Source: Gemmatimonadota bacterium | GTDB taxonomy: Bacteria; Gemmatimonadota; Gemmatimonadetes; Longimicrobiales; Gaopeijiaceae | DNA: 64,000 nt | Direction: 5' to 3' | NCBI GenBank assembly: GCA_022826005.1 | Contig: JAJDVT010000063.1 | Coordinates: forward strand, 124,001 to 188,000 | Shown here: positions 19,232 through 29,201 of the stretch, one piece after another | How the letters are laid out: each line of letters starts with the position of its first letter | Position numbering within the stretch: position 1 is the stretch's first letter | Made by a program: the position numbers and the translations under genes | Notes under the pieces: generated by a model | Told to the model about the DNA's origin: nothing | The model's database searches: none | What the model saw: the letters and a program-made list of their open reading frames with translations, nothing else

Positions 19232-20242
19232 CTACCCCGGCGGGCGAATGACCCGGGCTACCCGGAAACCGAGCCCGTTGTCCCGGCGGCCAGGCTGGAA
19301 CGGCAGCCGGTAGTCCACCCGGAGCATCTCCGTGGTGTAGCCCCAGGTGCCCCCGCGCAGCACCCGTCGTTCGCACCCCGATGGACTCCAGGCACCACCA
19401 TCGTCCGGCGCGTCGGCGTAGTTCGCGTTCCAGCAGTCCTCCGTCCACTCGGCCAGGTTCCCGATCACGTCATACAGCCCGAACGCGTTCGGTTCGTAGG
19501 AGCCCACCGGCGCCGTGCCCTCACCCTGTCCGTCCGAGCAGGACGCCGTCGTCAGGCCGAACTGCTCCCTGAGCTGCCTGCCCCGCGGCGTCCCCCCATA
19601 CTCCCGGTCCCACCCGTTCGCATGGCGGCACTGCTCCGCTTCGCTGTCCCCCCAGTAGCGGGGCGTCCGGGTTCCCGCCCGGGCCGCGTACTCCCACTCC
19701 GCCTCGGTGGGGAGCCGGTAGGTCTCTCCCGTCTCCGCCGATAGCCAGCGCGCGTAGACGTGCGCATCGTCCCAGCTCACTTCGGTCACCGGACGCCGCC
19801 CCCGGCCCCATCCATGGTCGGGGGGCACCCGGCCGCCACAGCCTCCTCCATCGGTGCACGCCTGCCACTCGTCGAAGGTCACCTCGTACACTCCGATGGC
19901 GAAGTCGTAGGCGATCGTGACGAACCGCGGCGGTCCGTCGCCATCGAAGGGTCCCGCGTTCCAGGTCGGCGAGCCCATGACGAACCTTCCCGCCGGAATC
20001 ACCGCCATCTCCGGACAGTGCGGGCAGTCGCGGAAGACTCTGCTGCCGGGGCCCGGAACGGCCGCGGGATCCGGGCTGGTACTCGGGCGCGGAACGGCCG
20101 CGGGATCCGGGCTGGCACTCGGGCGCGGCAGGGCTGCGGGATCCGGGCTGGCGCCGGGGTCTTGTCCCCGCGATCCGGATCCCGGGGAGGCGCACGCGGC
20201 CGCGGCGCATGCGGTCAAGACCCATAGCGCGCGGGTGCACAT
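19232..20242 (-). CDS. SUMF1/FGE-like lipoprotein, paralogue 1 (no catalytic Cys pair)
   Basis: 336-residue secreted protein. The chosen ATG at 20242 gives MCTRALWVLTACAAAACASPG, a lipoprotein-like signal; longer starts (20320) are possible but sit in the trxA-proximal spacer. After a Pro/Ala/Asp repeat linker comes a formylglycine-generating-enzyme (SUMF1) fold: FRDCPHCPEMAVIPAGRF, VTFDEWQACTD, RRPVTEVSWDDAHVYARWLS, YRLPTEAEWEYAARAG, FGLYDVIGNLAEWTEDCW and RRVLRGGTWGYTTEMLR. True FGE has two cysteines in the last motif; here they are absent, so sulfatase activation is unlikely. Several other cysteines are shared with the two paralogues downstream, suggesting disulfides. It ends just before the rsmI fusion and its TAG overlaps that gene's ribosome-binding region. 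Role unknown: binding, or a non-FGE oxidoreductase-like activity. Confidence 0.82.
   Translation of the reverse strand: MCTRALWVLTACAAAACASPGSGSRGQDPGASPDPAALPRPSASPDPAAVPRPSTSPDPAAVPGPGSRVFRDCPHCPEMAVIPAGRFVMGSPTWNAGPFDGDGPPRFVTIAYDFAIGVYEVTFDEWQACTDGGGCGGRVPPDHGWGRGRRPVTEVSWDDAHVYARWLSAETGETYRLPTEAEWEYAARAGTRTPRYWGDSEAEQCRHANGWDREYGGTPRGRQLREQFGLTTASCSDGQGEGTAPVGSYEPNAFGLYDVIGNLAEWTEDCWNANYADAPDDGGAWSPSGCERRVLRGGTWGYTTEMLRVDYRLPFQPGRRDNGLGFRVARVIRPPG
20054..20161 (-). repeat. Three 36-bp tandem units coding a Pro/Ala/Ser linker
   Basis: Units begin at 20054, 20090 and 20126; the first two are nearly identical and the third has drifted. They encode SPDPAAVPRPS-like 12-residue repeats between the lipoprotein signal and the SUMF1 domain. 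A whole-codon unit length permits in-frame expansion. Confidence 0.85.
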
Positions 20243-20327
20243 CCCCGGGGCACGCGATGCCGGGGCCGTCACCGCGTGGGGCCCCGTCATCCCGGCGGTC
20301 ACAGGTTCGGCCTTCCGCATGCCAGCC

Positions 20328-20660
20328 CTACAGGTGCTCTTCGATCTTCTGCGCCAGCTGGGCCTTCGGCACCGCGCCGATGACGGTGTCGACATGCTCC
20401 CCGCCCTTGAAGAAGAGGACCGTGGGGATCGACCGCACCCCGAAGCGCATCGAGGTCGACATGTTGGCGTCCACGTCCAGCTTGCCGACCCGGACGCGCC
20501 CCGCGAAATCGTCGGCCAGTTCGCTTACGAAGGGCGCGATGATCCGGCAGGGTCCGCACCACGCGGCCCAGAAGTCCACCATCGAAAGGCCATCGTAGTC
20601 CTCGATCTGTTCCTTGAAGTTGTCGTCGGTGACCGTGACGAGATTCGTGCTGTCCGCCAT
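20328..20660 (-). CDS. trxA: Thioredoxin
   Basis: 110-residue cytoplasmic disulfide reductase. MADSTNLVTVTDDNFKEQI starts the family pattern; the redox motif is WCGPC in DFWAAWCGPCRIIAP, with the cis-proline in RSIPTVLFFKGG. ATG 20660 has GGAG 8 bases upstream. Length and motifs match bacterial Trx1. It diverges from the methylmalonyl-CoA epimerase gene; the 88-bp spacer should hold both promoters. It is upstream of the first SUMF1-like gene, which has many cysteines, but Trx as cytoplasmic reductant need not be related. Confidence 0.95.
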   Translation of the reverse strand: MADSTNLVTVTDDNFKEQIEDYDGLSMVDFWAAWCGPCRIIAPFVSELADDFAGRVRVGKLDVDANMSTSMRFGVRSIPTVLFFKGGEHVDTVIGAVPKAQLAQKIEEHL

Positions 20661-20748
20661 TATTGTTCTCCAGTTGAAGGTGACTCGGCGCGGCCGGATG
20701 GGTGGTCCGCCCGGGACCGCCGCGCGCCGCCGCTGCGACCCCGCCGGC

Positions 20749-21276
20749 ATGGGGAATCTCCTGCATGTATTCTACACACACGGACCCGCGAAGTTGAACA
20801 GTCGGGAACCCGCCGAGCCCGGCGCAGCACGAGCCCACGTCCGCGAGGCGAGCCGCCCGGCCCGGCGCCCGCCCACCCGGGAACCCGCCGAGCTCGACCA
20901 CACGGCCCTCGCCGTCCGCTCCTTCGACGCGTGGGTCCCTCTGCTGGAGCAGCTGTCGGGCGCAAGGGCGACCCGGCCGGAACGGGTCGAGTCGCAGGGC
21001 GTGGAGGTGTGCTTCGTCGGCAATGTGGAGCTGATTCGGCCCATCGCGGCCGACAACGGTGTGGCCCGCTTCCTTGAGCGGCGTGGCCCGGGGCTCCATC
21101 ACATCGCCTACCGGGTGCCGGATGTGGACCGCGCGGTGGAGGCGCTGGCCGCACAGGGATACCGCTTCACGTCTGACGGGCCCATGGCGGGCGCGGGGGG
21201 ACACCGGATCGCCTTCATGCATCCGCGATCGACGGGAGGCGTGCTCGTGGAACTCGTCGAGAGAGCTCGCAGGTAA
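20749..21276 (+). CDS. mce: Methylmalonyl-CoA epimerase (VOC family)
   Basis: Interconverts (2R)- and (2S)-methylmalonyl-CoA between propionyl-CoA carboxylase and methylmalonyl-CoA mutase. The VOC-fold core runs from LDHTALAVRSFDAWVPLL through VELIRPIAADNGVARFL, GPGLHHIAYRVPDVDRAVEAL and GVLVELVER; the His of LDHTAL, the His of GLHHIAY and the terminal Glu of VLVELVE are the expected metal ligands. The start is uncertain: ATG 20749 gives about 45 extra residues of low-complexity sequence before LDHTAL, and a TTG near 20795 is the other candidate. TATTCTACAC at about 20768 resembles a -10 box, which would favour the later start. One of few plus-strand genes here. Confidence 0.85.
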   Translation: MGNLLHVFYTHGPAKLNSREPAEPGAARAHVREASRPARRPPTREPAELDHTALAVRSFDAWVPLLEQLSGARATRPERVESQGVEVCFVGNVELIRPIAADNGVARFLERRGPGLHHIAYRVPDVDRAVEALAAQGYRFTSDGPMAGAGGHRIAFMHPRSTGGVLVELVERARR

Positions 21277-21282
21277 AGCGGG

Positions 21283-21310
21283 CATTACAAGTTGTAATGT
21301 AAACACGACA
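21283..21310. promoter_or_regulatory. Palindrome CATTACAA-G-TTGTAATG plus AT-rich core between convergent genes
   Basis: 21283-21299 is an odd palindrome with 8-bp arms. It merges into GTAAACACGACA (21299-21310), the reverse complement of TGTCGTGTTTAC, which matches TGTCATGTTTAC at 61429-61440 in the dispersed repeat at 11 of 12 bases. It lies between the ends of mce (+) and SUMF1-like gene 2 (-), where a promoter would be unexpected. May be a remnant of the repeat core or a binding site acting as a bidirectional roadblock. Confidence 0.5.
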
Positions 21311-21339
21311 TTTGGGCGGTTCTGTCCGGTCCCGCTCGC

Positions 21340-22689
21340 TCAGTTCAGGTCCCGGGCGACCCGGAACCCGATTCGCCCGTAATCGATCGCCTGGACTGAG
21401 CGGGCCGCCGCGCGCAGGGCGGCGGGCGGGGTTCCCGAGCCACCCCCGCGCACCACCCGGACGCCACAGTTTCCCGTCTCCCAGGCGCTGCCGTCGGTCG
21501 GTGCTCCCGCGTAGAGCGGGTTCCAGCAGTCCCGGGTCCACTCGGACCGGTTGCCCAGGATGTCGTGCAGCCCGAAGGCGTTCGGCACATACAGTCCCAC
21601 CGGCGCCGCCCCGGCGTAGCCATCGGAACAGGCCGCCGCGCTCTCCGACGGCCGCTCCGTCAGATACACCCGGTCCTGGGCGTTCGCGTGTTCGCACTGC
21701 CCCGCCTCGCCGTCTCCCCAGTACCGCATCCCCGGCGTACCGGCACGCGCCACGTACTCCCACTCGGCCTCGCTCAACAGCCGGTACCGCTGCCCCGTCT
21801 CCGCCGACAGCCACGCCACGTAGGCCTGCGCCTGCACCCAGGTCACGCCGACGGGATACCGGTCCCGGCCTTCCACCCCGTCATCCGGGCGGACCACTTC
21901 GCAATCACCCGCCAGCTCGCACGCGGCCCATTCGGCGAAGGTCACCTCGTAGGCGCCGACCGCGAACGGGGCGCCGATCGTCACCTGGTGGAGCGGCTGC
22001 TCGTTTCTCTCGCGGCCCTCCTCCGAATCCGGGGAGCCCATGGTGAAGGTCCCCGCCGGAACGACCACCATCCCCGGACATGCGTCGCAGTCACGGAACA
22101 GACCCTCGGGCTCCGGGCGCGGGACCACGGGACGATCCGGGTCGGCTTCGACCTCCCCCCATCGCAGCTGCAGGAACTTCCCGTAGCTGCTTCCGTCGTT
22201 GTAGGTGGTGAAGCGTTCGTTGAGGGTGGTCGCGCGGGCTTCCGCGTCTCCCCAGCTCGCTCCGAACCCGATCGCGAAGTTCGTGAACCTGGGATCCTCC
22301 GGGCCCACCTCGTCGTCCCGGCGGACGACCGCCGAGAACCGGACGACCACCACGTGCGTATCCCCCGGGCCCGACCGGGCGCACCGGATGAGGGGGTAGC
22401 CGGCAAGCTGCTCGCGGACCGCCTCTTCCGCCTCCTGCATGTAGACCGTATCGACATCGGTGACGTACCCGAATTCCTCGTCCCGCGGGATTGTCCGATC
22501 CGGGTCCCCGCCCGCCACGACCCCGGGCTCGCTGCCGATGCATACCACGGCCCCCAGGCCGGGCTGGGCGGTCGCCGGTTGGGGAAACGCGGTTGAAAGC
22601 GGCGCGAGGGCGAGCACCGCCGGGAGGAGCCGGCACCATCGTGGGGGACAGGGGACTCGCGTCCGGGAAGCGGACCAGCGCGGACGCAT
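21340..22689 (-). CDS. SUMF1/FGE-like secreted protein, paralogue 2, with extra N-terminal domain
   Basis: 449-residue protein from ATG 22689. Signal segment about residues 22-42 (LLPAVLALAPLSTAFPQPAT). A unique domain of about 140 residues follows (VVCIGSEPGVVAGG...DTHVVVVRFSAVVRRDDE...SSYGKFLQLRWG) that I do not recognise. The C-terminal SUMF1 domain has LFRDCDACPGMVVVPAG, EVTFAEWAACELAGDC, YRLLSEAEWEYVARAG, FGLHDILGNRSEWTRDCWN and VVRGGGSGTPPAALRAAAR; the FGE catalytic cysteines are missing. ATG 22689 lies inside a partial copy of the dispersed repeat, so the start region may be recently acquired; ribosome-binding sequence there is weak. Transcribed after paralogue 3 with a 56-bp gap. Confidence 0.8.
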   Translation of the reverse strand: MRPRWSASRTRVPCPPRWCRLLPAVLALAPLSTAFPQPATAQPGLGAVVCIGSEPGVVAGGDPDRTIPRDEEFGYVTDVDTVYMQEAEEAVREQLAGYPLIRCARSGPGDTHVVVVRFSAVVRRDDEVGPEDPRFTNFAIGFGASWGDAEARATTLNERFTTYNDGSSYGKFLQLRWGEVEADPDRPVVPRPEPEGLFRDCDACPGMVVVPAGTFTMGSPDSEEGRERNEQPLHQVTIGAPFAVGAYEVTFAEWAACELAGDCEVVRPDDGVEGRDRYPVGVTWVQAQAYVAWLSAETGQRYRLLSEAEWEYVARAGTPGMRYWGDGEAGQCEHANAQDRVYLTERPSESAAACSDGYAGAAPVGLYVPNAFGLHDILGNRSEWTRDCWNPLYAGAPTDGSAWETGNCGVRVVRGGGSGTPPAALRAAARSVQAIDYGRIGFRVARDLN

Positions 22690-22736
22690 CGCCGCTCGAA
22701 CGCCGCAGGGGTCTCGTCTACGGGCCGCCGGGGCGA
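22668..22736 (+). repeat. Partial copy (right end) of the dispersed repeat
   Basis: About 70 bp that align with the right end of the repeat at 43517-43754 and 61328-61574, including GCGGACCAGC, CGGACGCATCGCCG, CGAACGCCG and CTACGGGC. Lies between SUMF1-like paralogues 3 and 2 and covers the ATG of paralogue 2. Orientation is the same as the copy at 43.5 kb. Confidence 0.65.
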
Positions 22737-22745
22737 TGCCGAGCG

Positions 22746-23651
22746 TCAATCCACGGTCCTGGCAACGCGGAGACCGATCACGAAGTACCGGTTTTCCGCG
22801 GGCCATCCGAGGCGGAAGGCCGAGCGCAGGACGCGCGCTCCGCCGAACCAGCCCCCGCCACGCATCGAACGAGATGAACAATCCCCCGCCTCCCAGGCGC
22901 TCCCATCCGTCGGGGCGCCATCGTATCTCTCGTTCCAGCAGTCCTGGGTCCACTCGTTCACGTTCCCGATCACGTCGTACAGTCCGAACATGTTCGCCGT
23001 GTAGCTTCCCACCGGCGCGGTGCGGCCGTGTCCGTCGGCACACTGCGCGGGGTTCGTCCGGTTGTATTCCGCCATCCACGCCCTCCCCTCGCCGGTCCGG
23101 GCGAGATCCTGGTCCAAACCGTTCGCATTCCGGCACTGTGCCGACTCACCGCCTTCCCAGTATCGCGCGGTCCGGGTACCCGCCCGCGCCACGTACTCCC
23201 ACTCCGCTTCGCTCAGCAGGCGGTAGTTCTCCCCAGTCTCCCGCGACAACCATTGCACGTAGCCTTGCGCGTCCTCCCAGCTCACGTTGATCACCGGCCG
23301 GCGGCCCCGGCCCCACCCCTCGTCCCCCGGACGGTATCCCGCGCATCCCCCCGCGCTCACACACGCATCCCACTCCTCGAAGGTTACCTCGTAGACCCCG
23401 ACCGCGAGCGGCGCCCCGATCGTCACCTCGTGTTGCGGATCCTCCAGCGGGAACCGCCCTTCCTCGTCCGCAGCGGACCCCATCGCGAAGCTCCCGCCCG
23501 GAACGATCACCATCAGCGGACACGCCGCACAGTCCCTGAACGTCTCGCCGGTCTCCTGGGCCGCCATGGGCCCGGGGACCGTCATCACGGCGAGGGCCGC
23601 CCCGAGGGACAGCGCAGCGCACCACCCGATTCCCTGATTCCGGACAACCAT
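22746..23651 (-). CDS. SUMF1/FGE-like secreted protein, paralogue 3
   Basis: 301-residue exported protein. ATG 23651 has a strong GGAGGT upstream and starts a signal peptide (MVVRNQGIGWCAALSLGAAL, cleavage probably after PMAAQ). The SUMF1 domain follows at once: TFRDCAACPLMVIVPGGSF, VTFEEWDACVSAGGC, RRPVINVSWEDAQGYVQWLS, YRLLSEAEWEYVARAG, FGLYDVIGNVNEWTQDCWN, SMRGGGWFGGARVLRSAFR. No catalytic Cys pair. It shares with the other two the pairs DCxxCP, CxxxGxC, a Cys before an SDG/ADG turn, and DCWN..DG.AW....C, so the three form one subfamily made by duplication. Confidence 0.85.
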   Translation of the reverse strand: MVVRNQGIGWCAALSLGAALAVMTVPGPMAAQETGETFRDCAACPLMVIVPGGSFAMGSAADEEGRFPLEDPQHEVTIGAPLAVGVYEVTFEEWDACVSAGGCAGYRPGDEGWGRGRRPVINVSWEDAQGYVQWLSRETGENYRLLSEAEWEYVARAGTRTARYWEGGESAQCRNANGLDQDLARTGEGRAWMAEYNRTNPAQCADGHGRTAPVGSYTANMFGLYDVIGNVNEWTQDCWNERYDGAPTDGSAWEAGDCSSRSMRGGGWFGGARVLRSAFRLGWPAENRYFVIGLRVARTVD

Positions 23652-23771
23652 CTCGTAGAAGACCTCCGCACGCAAAAGACCGATCGGTTGGCACCGGGGC
23701 CACAGCAGCCTGCCGCCACGGCAACCCGTCCGGAAACGTTAGCACAAACCCGGCCGGGGAGCATCCGGCGG

Positions 23772-24287
23772 CTACCGCACCAGCTCCGCCAGCCCCACCT
23801 CCCCCACCAGCCACCGCCCATCGTCGGCGCGGATCACCACAAAGGGCACCACCACCCCCCGCCCCCCCGTCACGACCTCCACCTCGACGCGGGCCGCGGG
23901 CCGCCCCCGCCCCACCACCCCCTCCTGCTTCCCTACGCGGTACGATTCGTGCGCGAGGACCACGGCAATCACGTCCATGCGCAGCTCCACCTCCTCCCGG
24001 CGGAGACACCGCTCGCCCAGCCCGATCCAGGCGCCCAGTCTCCGGAACGCGCACCCGACCGGTCCGCCCGTCTCGCCGATCGGCCCCCCACCGGTGCCGA
24101 ACCGCGAGGCCATGGCCGCGTGGTCGCGCTGTCTGGCGGCGTCGAGGAACTCCGCCACGACGCCGACCGGGCCGGGCCGGGAATCCGGCCCCGGCGGCAG
24201 ACCGGAGCCGGACGCACCCGCACTCCCGCAACCGGTCACCCCCACCAGCAGCACGCCGGCCATCAGCCTTGCGAATGGCTTCCTCAA
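23772..24287 (-). CDS. Small lipoprotein of unknown function
   Basis: 171-residue protein with n-region RKPFAR, hydrophobic stretch and lipobox VTGC (MAGVLLVGVTGCGSAG). A segment AEFLDAARQRDHAAMASRFGT resembles the first helix of NTF2-like/DUF4878-type lipoproteins; the C-terminal part has beta-like strands (PFVVIRADDGRWLVGEV). The start is TTG at 24287, overlapping the clpB TGA as TTGA. The 120 bp between it and SUMF1-like paralogue 3 show no clear feature. Function unknown. Confidence 0.7.
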   Translation of the reverse strand: MRKPFARLMAGVLLVGVTGCGSAGASGSGLPPGPDSRPGPVGVVAEFLDAARQRDHAAMASRFGTGGGPIGETGGPVGCAFRRLGAWIGLGERCLRREEVELRMDVIAVVLAHESYRVGKQEGVVGRGRPAARVEVEVVTGGRGVVVPFVVIRADDGRWLVGEVGLAELVR

Positions 24288-26938
24288 CCCCGCGCCTCCT
24301 CCGCGCCCACGAACGCCAGCCCGTCGCCATCCGCCGCCCTGTCCAGCCGCACCGCACCCCCCGGCACCACCCGGCCCTCGAGAATCGCCATCGCCAGCGG
24401 ATCCTGGACCAGACGCTGCACGGCCCGCTTGAGCGGCCGCGCGCCGAAGGCCGGGTCGTACCCCTCGCCTGCGATCACCCGCCTGGCCGGGTCCGAGACC
24501 GACAGCGCCACGTCCTGCTGTTCGGCCAGCTTCGCCACGCGCGCCAACTGAATGTCGACGATCTTCTCCAAGTCGTCTTTGGACAATGGCTTGAATACGA
24601 CAACCTCATCTACCCTATTAAGGAACTCGGGACGGAAGTGCTCCTTCAGCCGCCCGTGGACGAACGCCTCGACCTCGCGCCAGGCGGCAGGATCGGGCTG
24701 CTCCGCGCCATCCCGCCGCGCCCGCCCCACACCGGCCCGCTCGGCGTGCGCCAGGATCTCCGGCCCCGCGATGTTCGAGGTCATGATGATCACCGTGTTG
24801 CGAAAGTCGACCGTGCGGCCCTGCCCGTCGGTAAGGCGGCCGTCGTCGAGGATCTGCAGGAAGACGTTGAAGACCTTGGGGTGCGCCTTCTCGACCTCGT
24901 CGAAGAGGATGACCGCGTGGGGGCGCCGCCGGACGGCTTCGGTGAGCTGGCCGCCCTCGTCGTAGCCGACGTAGCCGGGAGGAGCGCCGAGCAGCCGGGA
25001 GACGGCGTGCGCCTCCATGTACTCGGACATGTCCATGCGGACCATCGCGCGCTCGTCGTTGAAGAGGAACTCGGCCAGCGCGCGTGCGGTCTCGGTCTTC
25101 CCCACCCCGGTGGGCCCGAGGAAGAGGAAGGATCCGATCGGACGGTTGGGATCCTGGATTCCGGCCCTCGCCCGCCTTACGGCACGGGATACCGCACTGA
25201 GAGCCCGGTCCTGGCCGATCACCCGCCTGCCAAGCAACTCCTCCAGCCCGGCGAGGCGCCGGCGTTCGGAGGCCATCAGCCGCGTCACCGGGATCCCCGT
25301 CCACTCGGCCACCACCTCCGCGATGTCCTCGGACGTCACCTCCTCCTTCAGGAACTTGCCCTCCGCCTGCAGCACGGCCAGCCGCTCCTCCGCCCTTTCG
25401 ATTTCGGCCTGGGCCTGCGGGATCTCCGAATACTGTACCTCCGCGGCGCGGCCCAGCTCGCCGCTCCGGGTGGCGCGCTCGGCCTCGGTGCGCAGCCCGT
25501 CCACGCGCTCCTTGAGCTCCTGGATGCGGGCGATCTGCACTTTTTCGGCCTGCCAGCTCGCCTTCATGGCCTGGCTCGACTCGCGCGCCGCGGCGAGTTC
25601 CTCCTCGATGCCGCCCAGGCGTTCGAGCGCGCCCGGGTCGTCTTCGCGTGCCAGCGCCTGCTTCTCGATCTCGAGCTGGATGATCTTGCGCTCCACTTCG
25701 TCGATCTCCTCCGGAAGGGAGTCGATCTCGATCCTGAGCCGGCTCCCCGCCTCGTCCATCAGGTCGATGGCCTTGTCGGGCAGGAACCGGCCCCCCACGT
25801 ACCTGTCCGACAATCTGGCGGCGGCGATCAGCGCCCCGTCATTGATCCGTACGCCGTGGTGCACTTCGTAGCGCTCCCTAATCCCGCGCAGGATGGTGAT
25901 CGTGTCCTCGACCGAGGTCGGCGCCACGTAGACCGGCTGGAAGCGCCGCTCCAGCGCCGGATCCTTCTCGACGTGCTTGCGGTACTCGCCGAGCGTGGTG
26001 GCGCCGATGACGCGGAGGTCGCCCCGCGCCAGCGCAGGCTTGAGCATGTTGCCGGCGTCGACCGCCCCCTCGGCGGCCCCGGCCCCCACGACGGTGTGCA
26101 GCTCGTCGATGAAGAGGATGTAGAGCCCGTCCGCCTCGGTGACCTCCTTGAGCACCGCCTTCATCCGCTCCTCGAAGTCGCCGCGGTACTTCGCGCCCGC
26201 GAGCATGGCGGAGATGTCGAGCGACACCAGCTTCTTGCCGGCCAGCGAGGTGGGGACGTCTCCCGCGACGATGCGCTGGGCCAGTCCCTCGGCGATCGCG
26301 GTCTTGCCGACGCCGGGCTCGCCGATCAGCACGGGGTCGTTCTTGGTCCGCCGGGCCAGGACCTTCATCACGCGCCGGATCTCGTCGTCGCGGCCGATCA
26401 CGGGGTCCAGCCTGCCGCGGCGGGCCCGCTCGGTGAGGTCCAGGGAGTAGCGGGCCAGCGCCTGGAACTTGTCTTCCGGGGTCCGGTCAGTGACCCGGTG
26501 GGAGCCCCGGATGGAATCGAGTGCGTCCCGGAGGCGGCCGGGCGAGGCGCCGGCTTCGCCGAGGACGCGCCCGGCGTCTCCCTTCCCCGCGGCGAGACCC
26601 AGAAGGAGGTGCTCGGTGGAGACGTAGGCATCGCCGAGTTCGCGGGACTCCTCCTCGGCCGCGCTCAGTGCCCGGCTCAGGTCCCTGGAGGCGCGCGGCG
26701 CGGATCCGCCGCTGATCCTGGCGCGCCGGCCCAGCTCCGTCTCCACCGCACGCACCACCTGCTCGGGCTGGACCTCCATCTTGCGCAGCACGGGCACGAC
26801 CACACCGCCCTCCTGTTCAAGGAGGGCCTTCAGCAGATGGACCCCGCCCACATCCGGGTGCTCCGCCCGGAGCGCCTCCCTGACGGCGGCGGCGACGGCC
26901 TCCGCGGCCTTCACGGTCATTCGGTTCGCGTCCAGCAT
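24284..26938 (-). CDS. clpB: ATP-dependent disaggregase ClpB
   Basis: 884-residue Hsp100 AAA+ chaperone that works with DnaK to rescue aggregated proteins in the cytoplasm. N-terminal Clp-N repeats ([22 protein letters not shown]), first AAA domain with [27 protein letters not shown] and [16 protein letters not shown], the coiled-coil middle domain (about residues 400-520), second AAA domain with [27 protein letters not shown] and [11 protein letters not shown], and a D2 small domain ([17 protein letters not shown]). ATG 26938 has AGGAG 9 bases upstream. The middle domain distinguishes it from ClpA/ClpC. Upstream operators suggest stress repression. Confidence 0.97.
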
Positions 26939-26974: not shown

Positions 26975-27006
26975 TGCCACTTTGGCAGGGTGCTGCCACT
27001 TTGGCA
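26975..27006. promoter_or_regulatory. Operator pair TGCCACTTTGGCA x2 upstream of clpB
   Basis: Two identical palindromes TGCCA-CTT-TGGCA at 26975-26987 and 26994-27006, 19 bp apart. They end about 36 bp before the clpB start, where a repressor would block the promoter. Not the CIRCE (HrcA) or HAIR (HspR) consensus. Confidence 0.65.
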
Positions 27007-27037
27007 GGGTCCGGGTGCGCCGCGCGGCCATCGGTTC

Positions 27038-27069
27038 GGCCAAAATGGCAGGAAGCGGCCAAAATGGCA
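27038..27069. promoter_or_regulatory. Operator pair GGCCAAAATGGCA x2 on the transporter side
   Basis: Two copies at 27038-27050 and 27057-27069, again 19 bp apart; reverse complement TGCCATTTTGGCC fits the clpB-side motif (consensus TGCCAyTTTGGCm). They form a mirror pair to the clpB-side sites, with 31 bp between pairs, so the two divergent genes may be under one regulator. Confidence 0.6.
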
Positions 27070-27188
27070 GAAGTCGTCCGGTCCCGGCACCGCGCCCTCC
27101 CCCATACATGAAAGATCCGGGCCAGCCCGTGACGCCCCGCGTCGCGTGCCGGCCAAACCCGAAAAAACCCGCGAACTGGAGCCTCCGC

Positions 27189-29201
27189 ATGGCATCCGTC
27201 GACCCCCCGGCCCGCAGGGGCCTGCCCCCAGAGGCGTACGAAGTCGTCCCCGGCAGCGAGTACAAGCCCTACGTGCCCGCCGGCAAGTCGCTGCCGGAAT
27301 TCACTGTCAAGGCGGTCTTCGTCGGCCTGCTGATGGCGGTGGTTTTCGGCGCGGCCAACGCCTACCTGGGGCTGCGGGTGGGCCTGACGGTGAGCGCCTC
27401 GATCCCGGCTGCGGTGATGGCGGTGGCGATCTTCCGCGCGCTGCGCCGCGGCACGGTTCTCGAAACCAACATGGTGCAAACGATCGGGTCGGCGGGAGAA
27501 TCGGTGGCCGCGGGGGTGATCTTCACCATCCCGGCTCTCTTCATCTGGCAGCGCACGGACCCCACGATCGCGGTGGACCTGCTGGAGGTGTCCGTGATCG
27601 CGGCCTTCGGCGGGCTCCTCGGGGTCCTCTTCATGATCCCGCTGAGGCGCTATCTGATCTCGCGCGAGCACGGGAAGCTCCCCTACCCCGAGGGCACGGC
27701 CTGCGCCGAGGTGCAGGTGGCCGGCGACATGGGCGGCGGCAAGGCGCGGCTGCTCTTCTCGGGGCTGGGGCTCGGCGCCCTCTACCAGGCGATGGCGAAC
27801 AGCAACGGACTGGGCCTGTGGAACGAGGGGCCGAGCGTGGGCCTCCCGGCCAAGGCGCGGATCGGGGGCGACTTCACCCCTGAGCTGCTGGGCGTGGGGT
27901 TCATCATCGGGCCCCGGATCGCGGCGATCATGTTCGGGGGCAGCGCGCTGGCGTGGCTCGTCCTGATCCCCGCGATCAACCTCTGGGGCGGCGACGGCGT
28001 GGTCTACCCGGCGACGGCGACGATGGCGTCGCTCACTTCGGGCGAGATCTGGAACAACTACATCCGCTACGTGGGCGCGGGCGCGGTCGGGTGCGCCGGG
28101 ATCATCACCCTGATCAAGTCGCTGCCGACGATCGTGGAGTCGATTCGGCTGGGGGTGGGCCAGGTGGGCGGAGGCGAGCTGGCGGCCGGCGTGCCGCGCA
28201 CCCAGCAGGACCTGCCGATGAAGCTGGTGCTCGGCCTGGCGGTCCTGATGGCCGTCGCGCTGTGGCTCTGGCCGGGAGTGCCGGTCGGGCCGCTGGGGGC
28301 GATCCTCATCGTGATCTTCAGCTTCTTCTTCGTGACGGTGTCGAGCCGGATCGTGGGGCTGATCGGATCTTCGTCGAACCCGGTGTCGGGAATGACGATC
28401 GCCGCGCTGATCCTCACCTCGCTGATCTGGGTGGCGCTGGGGCTGAACGACGGCAGCAGCGCGGCCAAGGTGGCGGTGCTCGCGGTCGGCGCGGTGGTGT
28501 GCATCTCGGCGGCCGCGGCCGGCGACACGTCCCAGGACCTCAAGACCGGCTTCCTGGTGGGCGCGACCCCGAAGCGCATGCAGGTCGGCGAGATGCTCGG
28601 GGTGCTGGCGTGCGCGGTGACGATAGGCGGGGTGCTGATCGTGCTCAACGAGTCGTACGGGATCGGAACGGTGGACGGCCTCGCGGCGCCGCAGGCGACG
28701 CTGATGAGCCTGGTGATCGACGGGGTGCTGGAGCAGTCGCTGCCCTGGGGCTTCGTGGCCATCGGGATGCTGCTCGCGATCGTGATCGAGTTCGTCTTCA
28801 AGCTGCCGTCGCTGGCCTTTGCGGTGGGCGTCTACCTGCCCGTCTCGCTGATGACGCCGATCCTGGTCGGCGGCCTGATGCGGCTGGCGCTGAACCGCAG
28901 GTACAAGGACGAGGACGAGACCGAAGACGGCGTGAGCGTCCTGGCCGAGCGGCGCGAGCAGGGCGTGCTCTACGCATCGGGGATGATCGCCGGGGCGGCG
29001 CTGCTGGGCGTGCTGATCGGGGGCGCCATCTTCGCGGTGACGCAGATCACCGGCAACCCGGAGGCGGCGTCGATGTGGCAGGTCGGGCACGAGCGGCTGG
29101 ACGAGGTGGTGCCGTATGCGTCTTCGGTGGTCGGCACCCTGGCGTTTGCCGGGCTGTGCTGGATGCTGTGGCGCGCAGCGAACCGGGGAGAGCGGGCGTG
29201 A
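27189..29201 (+). CDS. OPT-family oligopeptide/metal-complex transporter
   Basis: 670-residue inner-membrane protein with about 14-16 hydrophobic helices. Family marks: SLPEFTVKAVFVGLLMAVVF, AANAYLGLRVGLTVSASIPA, TNMVQTIGSAGES, KLPYPEGTACAEV, GFIIGPRIAAIMFGG, SSNPVSGMTIAAL, GDTSQDLKTGFLVGATP and FAVGVYLPVSLMTPILVGG. OPT transporters import oligopeptides or peptide-like chelates with protons. ATG 27189 is chosen because GGAG lies 7 bases upstream and the family N-terminus begins here. It diverges from clpB across the operator array and overlaps the next small lipoprotein gene as GTGA. Confidence 0.95.
   Translation: MASVDPPARRGLPPEAYEVVPGSEYKPYVPAGKSLPEFTVKAVFVGLLMAVVFGAANAYLGLRVGLTVSASIPAAVMAVAIFRALRRGTVLETNMVQTIGSAGESVAAGVIFTIPALFIWQRTDPTIAVDLLEVSVIAAFGGLLGVLFMIPLRRYLISREHGKLPYPEGTACAEVQVAGDMGGGKARLLFSGLGLGALYQAMANSNGLGLWNEGPSVGLPAKARIGGDFTPELLGVGFIIGPRIAAIMFGGSALAWLVLIPAINLWGGDGVVYPATATMASLTSGEIWNNYIRYVGAGAVGCAGIITLIKSLPTIVESIRLGVGQVGGGELAAGVPRTQQDLPMKLVLGLAVLMAVALWLWPGVPVGPLGAILIVIFSFFFVTVSSRIVGLIGSSSNPVSGMTIAALILTSLIWVALGLNDGSSAAKVAVLAVGAVVCISAAAAGDTSQDLKTGFLVGATPKRMQVGEMLGVLACAVTIGGVLIVLNESYGIGTVDGLAAPQATLMSLVIDGVLEQSLPWGFVAIGMLLAIVIEFVFKLPSLAFAVGVYLPVSLMTPILVGGLMRLALNRRYKDEDETEDGVSVLAERREQGVLYASGMIAGAALLGVLIGGAIFAVTQITGNPEAASMWQVGHERLDEVVPYASSVVGTLAFAGLCWMLWRAANRGERA

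Follow-up and report, generated by a model that had tools for sequence, protein, structure and literature searches.

Heat-shock control in bacteria is usually described through sigma-32, HrcA/CIRCE or HspR/HAIR. Sigma-54 has also been connected with genes of this kind. In Flavobacterium psychrophilum, mapped transcription start sites place -24/-12 promoters of sigma-54 (SM4) at groESL, lon, dnaK, grpE-dnaJ, htpG, clpB and a rhomboid protease gene, and three PF00158 proteins are named in the part of that paper considered here, none of them being assigned there as the activator (PMC9723704). A survey of sigma-54 regulons predicted a heat-shock enrichment in Planctomycetota and Bacteroidota (PMC12316311, in the part considered); the terms gemmatimon and Gemmatimonadota have 0 occurrences in its main text. 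In Myxococcus xanthus the NtrC-like HsfA of the HsfBA system directly controls the heat-shock gene lonD (PMC9109919, in part), and a tandem promoter with a sigma-54 member was reported before hrcA-grpE-dnaK in Chlamydia (PMC8762339, in part). The considered parts of two further papers, PMC3162934 and PMC4641369, hold nothing bearing on sigma-54 heat-shock control. Our literature search, which covered the best-ranked and mostly open-access titles, did not meet sigma-54 heat-shock control in Gemmatimonadota.

We analysed a stretch of 64,000 nucleotides, called the window here, from a genome of the little-studied phylum Gemmatimonadota. It encodes clpB on the minus strand (24284..26938, with the ATG at 26938, i.e. 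C3:150938; Pfam domains Clp_N, AAA lid, AAA_2 and ClpB_D2-small) and, divergent from it on the plus strand, an OPT oligopeptide transporter (27189..29201, with the ATG at 27189; PF03169, E 6e-98). Four palindromes, to which no strand is assigned, lie between the two genes with start-to-start spacings of 19, 44 and 19 bp. Palindromes 1 (26975..26987) and 2 (26994..27006) are exact copies of TGCCACTTTGGCA, and palindromes 3 (27038..27050) and 4 (27057..27069) read GGCCAAAATGGCA, with one mismatch each. The original prediction of a four-copy array is thus borne out in both pairs and in the 19 bp within each, two copies being exact and two having one mismatch. Palindrome 1 is the one next to clpB that is kept in relatives, and it is a proposed site of the candidate activator that we call B. 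A promoter-like element, TGGCCCGGATCTT (27112..27124, minus strand), lies upstream of the clpB palindromes. Elsewhere in the window, at 19232-23675 on the minus strand, three adjacent ORFs show by eye a pattern like that of the formylglycine-generating enzyme (FAMGS ... LLSEAEWEY).

Taken within the window only, the count of these sites is weak, with four at no more than one mismatch vs a mean of 1.55 in shuffled sequences, and 6 of 100 shuffles reach four. A chance origin of the palindromes is ruled out by the genome-wide count and by conservation, both given below. CIRCE and HAIR are ruled out as the site type of the array as well, neither being detected there in a scan of the window, just as had been predicted. 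No CIRCE site (TTAGCACTC-N9-GAGTGCTAA) was found at five mismatches or fewer in the window or in six further loci, and an hrcA gene is present elsewhere in the same genome. The HAIR pattern CTTGAGT-N7-ACTCAAG has no match in the window at three mismatches or fewer; its sites with four mismatches are scattered, none of them at the array.

The array belongs to something larger than had been proposed from the window. In the genome that holds it (4.85 Mb), the exact palindrome TGCCA-N3-TGGCA occurs 27 times per strand vs 3 for the reversed pattern, and sites occur in pairs 9 times vs 0 for the reversed control. Across the phylum, paired sites were found in 28 of 395 genomes (the reversed control in 1 genome). 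Most of the 28 belong to the window's genus or to one of three further genera in the family, and one, G226, comes from a different family. The clusters in the window's own genome lie upstream of dnaK (C105), lon (C71) and clpB (C3), while one adjoins a permease-like gene named by eye (C51) and two adjoin a conserved element-end sequence (C37 and C52). Arrays in relatives precede dnaK, lon, clpB, hsp20, OPT, a deiminase of the HutF type and two further amidohydrolases, one of which has a rhomboid gene next to it; here the names dnaK, lon, hsp20 and most of the clpB names were assigned by eye from translations. Several arrays have no clear target gene. A search for copies near other stress genes had been set as a check beforehand, and it found them upstream of dnaK and lon in the own genome and of hsp20 in relatives. 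We also observed arrays of the genus g4 at a formimidoylglutamate deiminase-like gene of the hutF type (L063, L064 and L069) and beside other amidohydrolases (L066 and L058, the latter adjoining a rhomboid protease gene), in both cases with no recognisable sigma-54 promoter. In G070 an array precedes a gene of the Fic/DOC family (L082), and in G161 one precedes a similar ORF (L097).

The spacings between neighbouring palindromes are restricted. The 99 spacings in 52 arrays take only values of 19-24, 30-32, 39-44, 60 and 64 bp. Their resultant length is 0.727 at 10.5 bp (n=99), with a best period of 10.4 bp. Using each of the 17 distinct spacings once gives a resultant of 0.561, a value reached by 0.0004 of random draws, and this is the safer figure because orthologous arrays are not independent. 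Such helical phasing would place the palindromes on one face of the helix, and the dyad sites therefore appear to be arranged as expected of a regulon of sigma-54 and an enhancer-binding protein.

Promoters of the matching kind are found at several of these genes. In all ten array-bearing dnaK promoters that we displayed, a -24/-12 promoter such as CCGGCACGCCCCTTGCC lies between the last palindrome and dnaK. We scored such promoters by GG-N10-GC plus eight further positions, using the sigma-54 consensus and a score devised after the first dnaK promoters had been seen. A score of 6 or more was reached on one side of 17 of the 52 arrays: nine at dnaK, four at hsp20, two at lon, one at the clpB of G226 and one with no assigned target. 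In the control with altered spacers, spacers 7 and 13 gave one such side-score each and spacers 8, 9, 11 and 12 gave none. The remaining 35 of the 52 arrays, including those at OPT, hutF and the other amidohydrolases, have no promoter scoring 6 or more within ~140 bp.

We then scored 78 dnaK loci, taken as 30 + 28 + 20 from three sets and covering 11 families, one of them from another class; the first 30 are the best-scoring loci, not a random sample, some genomes of the family gave no match, and a second dnaK-like locus (L227) was excluded. With the N10 spacer, 70 of the 78 reached 6 or more; the controls did so in 0-3 of 78 with spacers of 7-9 or 11-13, and in 9 of 78 when the reverse strand was scored. 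At least one dnaK locus reaches this score in 10 of the 11 families. The exception is family f5 (0 of 5), whose loci L203, L208, L213, L218 and L220 all score 4 or 5. The f5 promoters retain GG-N10-GC and have a weaker -24 box (GGCCC or GGTCC). Outside the window's genus, 68 promoters were left of 71 after dropping three that scored less than 5 or whose upstream sequence was too short; these must be the f5 loci L208, L213 and L218 (score 4). Upstream of the -24 box in these 68, the best TGYCA-N3-TGRCA has no mismatch in 22, one in 29 and two in 17, so that 51 of 68 have a palindrome at one mismatch or fewer vs 0.9 in shuffled sequences, and 68 of 68 at two or fewer vs 7.8. Given the promoter scores in 70 of 78 loci and the palindrome in 68 of 68, the sigma-54 promoter with its palindrome at dnaK appears to span nearly the whole phylum as sampled. 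The dense arrays of exact copies look like an elaboration in a few genera. A search with the combined pattern of palindrome and promoter used N6 where the real distance is N5; its nine listed matches (5 of 9 genomes) are a wrong-spacing control at best and were left unused.

RNA polymerase with sigma-54 requires an activator of the PF00158 family. The gene for rpoN (PF04552) gave one match in each of the three genomes searched for it (G000, G070 and G226). Five strong PF00158 proteins are encoded in the window's own genome and three in G070. One of the five, B (C105:17953-19668, minus strand), is encoded on the strand opposite to dnaK, at a distance of ~13 kb. It has a PF00158 domain (E 2.7e-69) with the loop GSFTGA and a Fis-type helix-turn-helix (HTH_8, E 5.9e-15). 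Its closest named relatives are from metagenome-assembled genomes (MAGs) of Gemmatimonadota, and it has 72% identity to a protein of the isolate RHO3_bin_72. In 29 pairs of B and dnaK on the same contig, which were hand-picked and are not all possible pairs, the two genes are on opposite strands in 29 of 29 and 7-59 kb apart (median 11 kb); G125, left out of this set, is an exception with B 1.6 Mb from dnaK. A query with B gave strong matches in 389 of 390 genomes, a count that includes paralogs and scores the best three candidates per genome.

Some genomes seem to leave little choice of activator. Exactly one strong PF00158 match was found in 11 of the 14 genomes searched for this (G034 and ten of the genus g73), and it is the ortholog of B. 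As the polymerase needs such a protein, B is the candidate in these genomes. The dnaK promoters in five of the eleven score 7, 7, 7, 7 and 8, and their palindrome is exact in three and has one mismatch in two. These assemblies are 90-98% complete, which leaves room for a second activator that they do not contain.

The predicted structure of B (mean pLDDT 68.8 for the whole model) has a receiver-like N-terminal region with strands and helices over residues 10-124, mostly at high confidence, followed by the sigma-54 AAA+ domain, a long helix (396-433) and a helix-turn-helix of the Fis type. The phospho-acceptor Asp at the end of strand 3 is replaced by a Thr (T56) that is nearly invariant in 22 orthologs, so that B does not have the residue expected there of a two-component response regulator. 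The helix-turn-helix is near-invariant in the same 22 orthologs, its segment GIGERTLYRKI being nearly constant. Very similar terminal segments, e.g. GISERTLYRKIKEY, are present in homologs of B from Bacteroidota, Chlorobiota, KSB1, Latescibacterota and Marinimicrobia, and the end segments of activators from Desulfallas, Geomonas and Nitrospirae differ from that of B. The combination of promoter and palindrome was not found near B homologs in 19 loci (18 of other phyla and one of a Gemmatimonadetes MAG), which had not been picked for chaperone genes.

At clpB the palindrome itself is well conserved. Its conservation had been set as a further check, and 25 of 30 clpB loci of the family, which are the best-scoring ones and not a random sample (some family genomes had no match), have the palindrome at one mismatch or fewer within 120 bp of the start, vs ~0.5 expected. 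For 23 of these 25, the distance between the clpB start and the best palindrome is 24-68 bp; for the other two it is 105 bp. The divergent transporter does not follow: OPT is in the flank of only 7 of the 30 clpB loci, and it is absent from the ~1.5 kb flank in 18 of the 25 that bear the palindrome. Conservation hence does not support the original idea that peptide uptake is controlled together with clpB. As the palindrome is kept at clpB mostly without OPT beside it, clpB would be the conserved partner, and whatever factor reads the palindrome appears to have clpB as a conserved target.

The weakest link of our reading is clpB, since no sigma-54 promoter was found there. The best sigma-54 score upstream of the window's clpB is 3; nothing reaches 5 on either side of the array, and no site in the window reaches 7. 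A score of at least 6 was found in only 1 of the 30 clpB loci of the family. TTGCAAC before the ribosome site of the window's clpB was rejected as part of a sigma-54 promoter, since no GG stands at the required distance from it, and a reading as GG-N11-GC was rejected because it is not conserved. An element of the type TGGYCCG (TGGYCCGRATCTTgaa, a regular expression written after the sequences had been seen) lies upstream of the clpB palindromes in 18 of the 30 loci, TGGCCCGGATCTT being its match in the window. Its form TGGYCCGRATCTTGA might be taken as a -24/-12 promoter with GA for GC, but in the genus of the window this place reads TTTC or TTCC, and we therefore did not count it as sigma-54.

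The reader of the palindromes at clpB, and also of those at OPT and hutF, might be a second protein, or B without sigma-54, acting as a repressor or roadblock of another promoter, possibly TGGCCCGGATCTT; the enhancer role seen at dnaK would then not apply in the window. We regard this as a serious possibility, although a somewhat improbable one. It would account for the missing sigma-54 scores at 29 of the 30 family clpB loci and for the position of the palindrome, close to the clpB start and downstream of the conserved element where the element is present. The genus g4 may point the same way. Its dnaK palindromes (L338-L342) read TGCCATTTTGTCA or TGCCATTCTGTCA, i.e. TGCCA-N3-TGTCA, while its clpB keeps TGCCA-N3-TGGCA; the half-site change is specific to one promoter, and two readers are possible since the palindromes of the two genes differ. 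However, the clpB palindromes share their core with those of dnaK, lon and hsp20, and the clpB of G226 has the full arrangement, with two exact palindromes and a good sigma-54 promoter, CGGCATGTCGGTTGCA; nor did a candidate for a second reader emerge, short of a systematic search. Another enhancer-binding protein could also read the sites in place of B, as the own genome encodes four other strong PF00158 proteins, namely the NtrX/NtrC-like one on C113 and those on C14, C33 and C133. This is unlikely given that B is the sole strong match in eleven genomes, that all five of these examined retain the dnaK promoter and palindrome, and that B keeps its place near dnaK in the hand-picked pairs.

Mobile elements were also found at the palindromes. 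Two conserved element ends occur at fixed distances from them. The first, endA, has the palindrome at +52 or +53 in five of five places (two in the own genome, one at hsp20 of G128, one at clpB of G061 and one in G139), and the second, endB, has it at +33 in five of five, including dnaK of G394 and clpB of G017. The loci with element ends are C51 (L007), C52 (L008) and C37 (L004) of the own genome and L040, L052, L232, L036, L042, L055 and L077. An integrase (PF00589) is encoded near endA in G128 and an integrase-like ORF in G061, which suggests that integrative elements use the palindrome as an insertion site. In the complete genome G017, one element end lies beside clpB; another palindrome follows after 3.3 kb, and OPT is at a distance of 7.8 kb. 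A second element end was not found there within 100 kb. One could suppose from the ends and integrases that the arrays are primarily integration sites with no regulatory role, but we consider this very unlikely, since most arrays have no such flank and the palindromes of dnaK and clpB are kept across genera with unrelated flanks. It is more likely that the mobile elements exploit palindromes that already existed.

Our analysis therefore favours an enhancer role. The palindromes are probably the binding sites of B, an NtrC-family enhancer-binding protein of sigma-54, which would drive dnaK, hsp20 and lon, and the palindromes in the window most likely belong to the enhancer set of such a sigma-54 proteostasis regulon. 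In the proposed mechanism B would bind the helically phased arrays at the three genes. From there it would contact RNA polymerase with sigma-54, poised at a -24/-12 promoter some tens of bp further downstream, and would use ATP hydrolysis to open this promoter. As its receiver-like domain has no usual phospho-acceptor Asp, B may be controlled by other means than phosphorylation, e.g. by chaperone titration. The gene clpB would belong, as a conserved member, to the set of genes that carry these sites, together with dnaK, lon and hsp20. We infer the binding and activation by B, a heat signal and any action at clpB from the sequence features above. Of the original proposal, an unnamed stress repressor or activator, the assignment of the sites to a regulator of stress genes holds, now narrowed to an activator that binds sigma-54 enhancers.

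We speculate further that B might be the founding member of a proteostasis activator that spans a superphylum, defined by TGYCA-N3-TGRCA enhancers, sigma-54 heat-shock promoters, the segment GI[GS]ERTLYRKIK and a receiver-like domain that cannot be phosphorylated. Its homologs in Bacteroidota, Chlorobiota, KSB1, Latescibacterota and Marinimicrobia would then supply the activator still missing from the sigma-54 chaperone regulon described in Flavobacterium, and mobile elements would have come to insert at the enhancers. This extension is tentative, quite possible but short of probable. It makes B a candidate for the activator left unassigned in that regulon. Sigma-54 depends on an activator driven by ATP, and it appears to control dnaK across most of the phylum. 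An enhancer and a candidate activator can now be named for this control, so that it can be tested directly in a cultured strain of the phylum. The palindrome is also a searchable motif for proteostasis genes in uncultured genomes.

Among the known systems, a sigma-54 chaperone regulon is already on record for Flavobacterium, with no activator assigned to it; as far as we searched, the enhancer, the candidate activator and the phylum are new. As in the considered part of the F. psychrophilum report, dnaK and lon have -24/-12 promoters here, and a g4 array lies beside a rhomboid gene; unlike there, the phylum is another one, we propose both a palindrome as enhancer and a candidate for the activator, and clpB of the family mostly has no recognisable sigma-54 promoter (PMC9723704). 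The regulon survey likewise predicts DnaK, DnaJ, GrpE, GroES/EL and IbpA under sigma-54, but the part of it considered names neither an enhancer nor an activator for its heat-shock cluster (PMC12316311). HsfA is a precedent for an NtrC-like regulator of a heat-shock lon gene; it is phosphorylated by the hybrid kinase HsfB, whereas B does not have the usual phospho-acceptor Asp (PMC9109919, in the part considered). In Foldseek alignments, which covered structures of FleQ, ZraR, NtrX and NtrC1, the AAA+ domains of FleQ and ZraR are ~50% identical to that of B, while the long linker helix (396-433) and the receiver-like domain without the Asp set B apart from all four.
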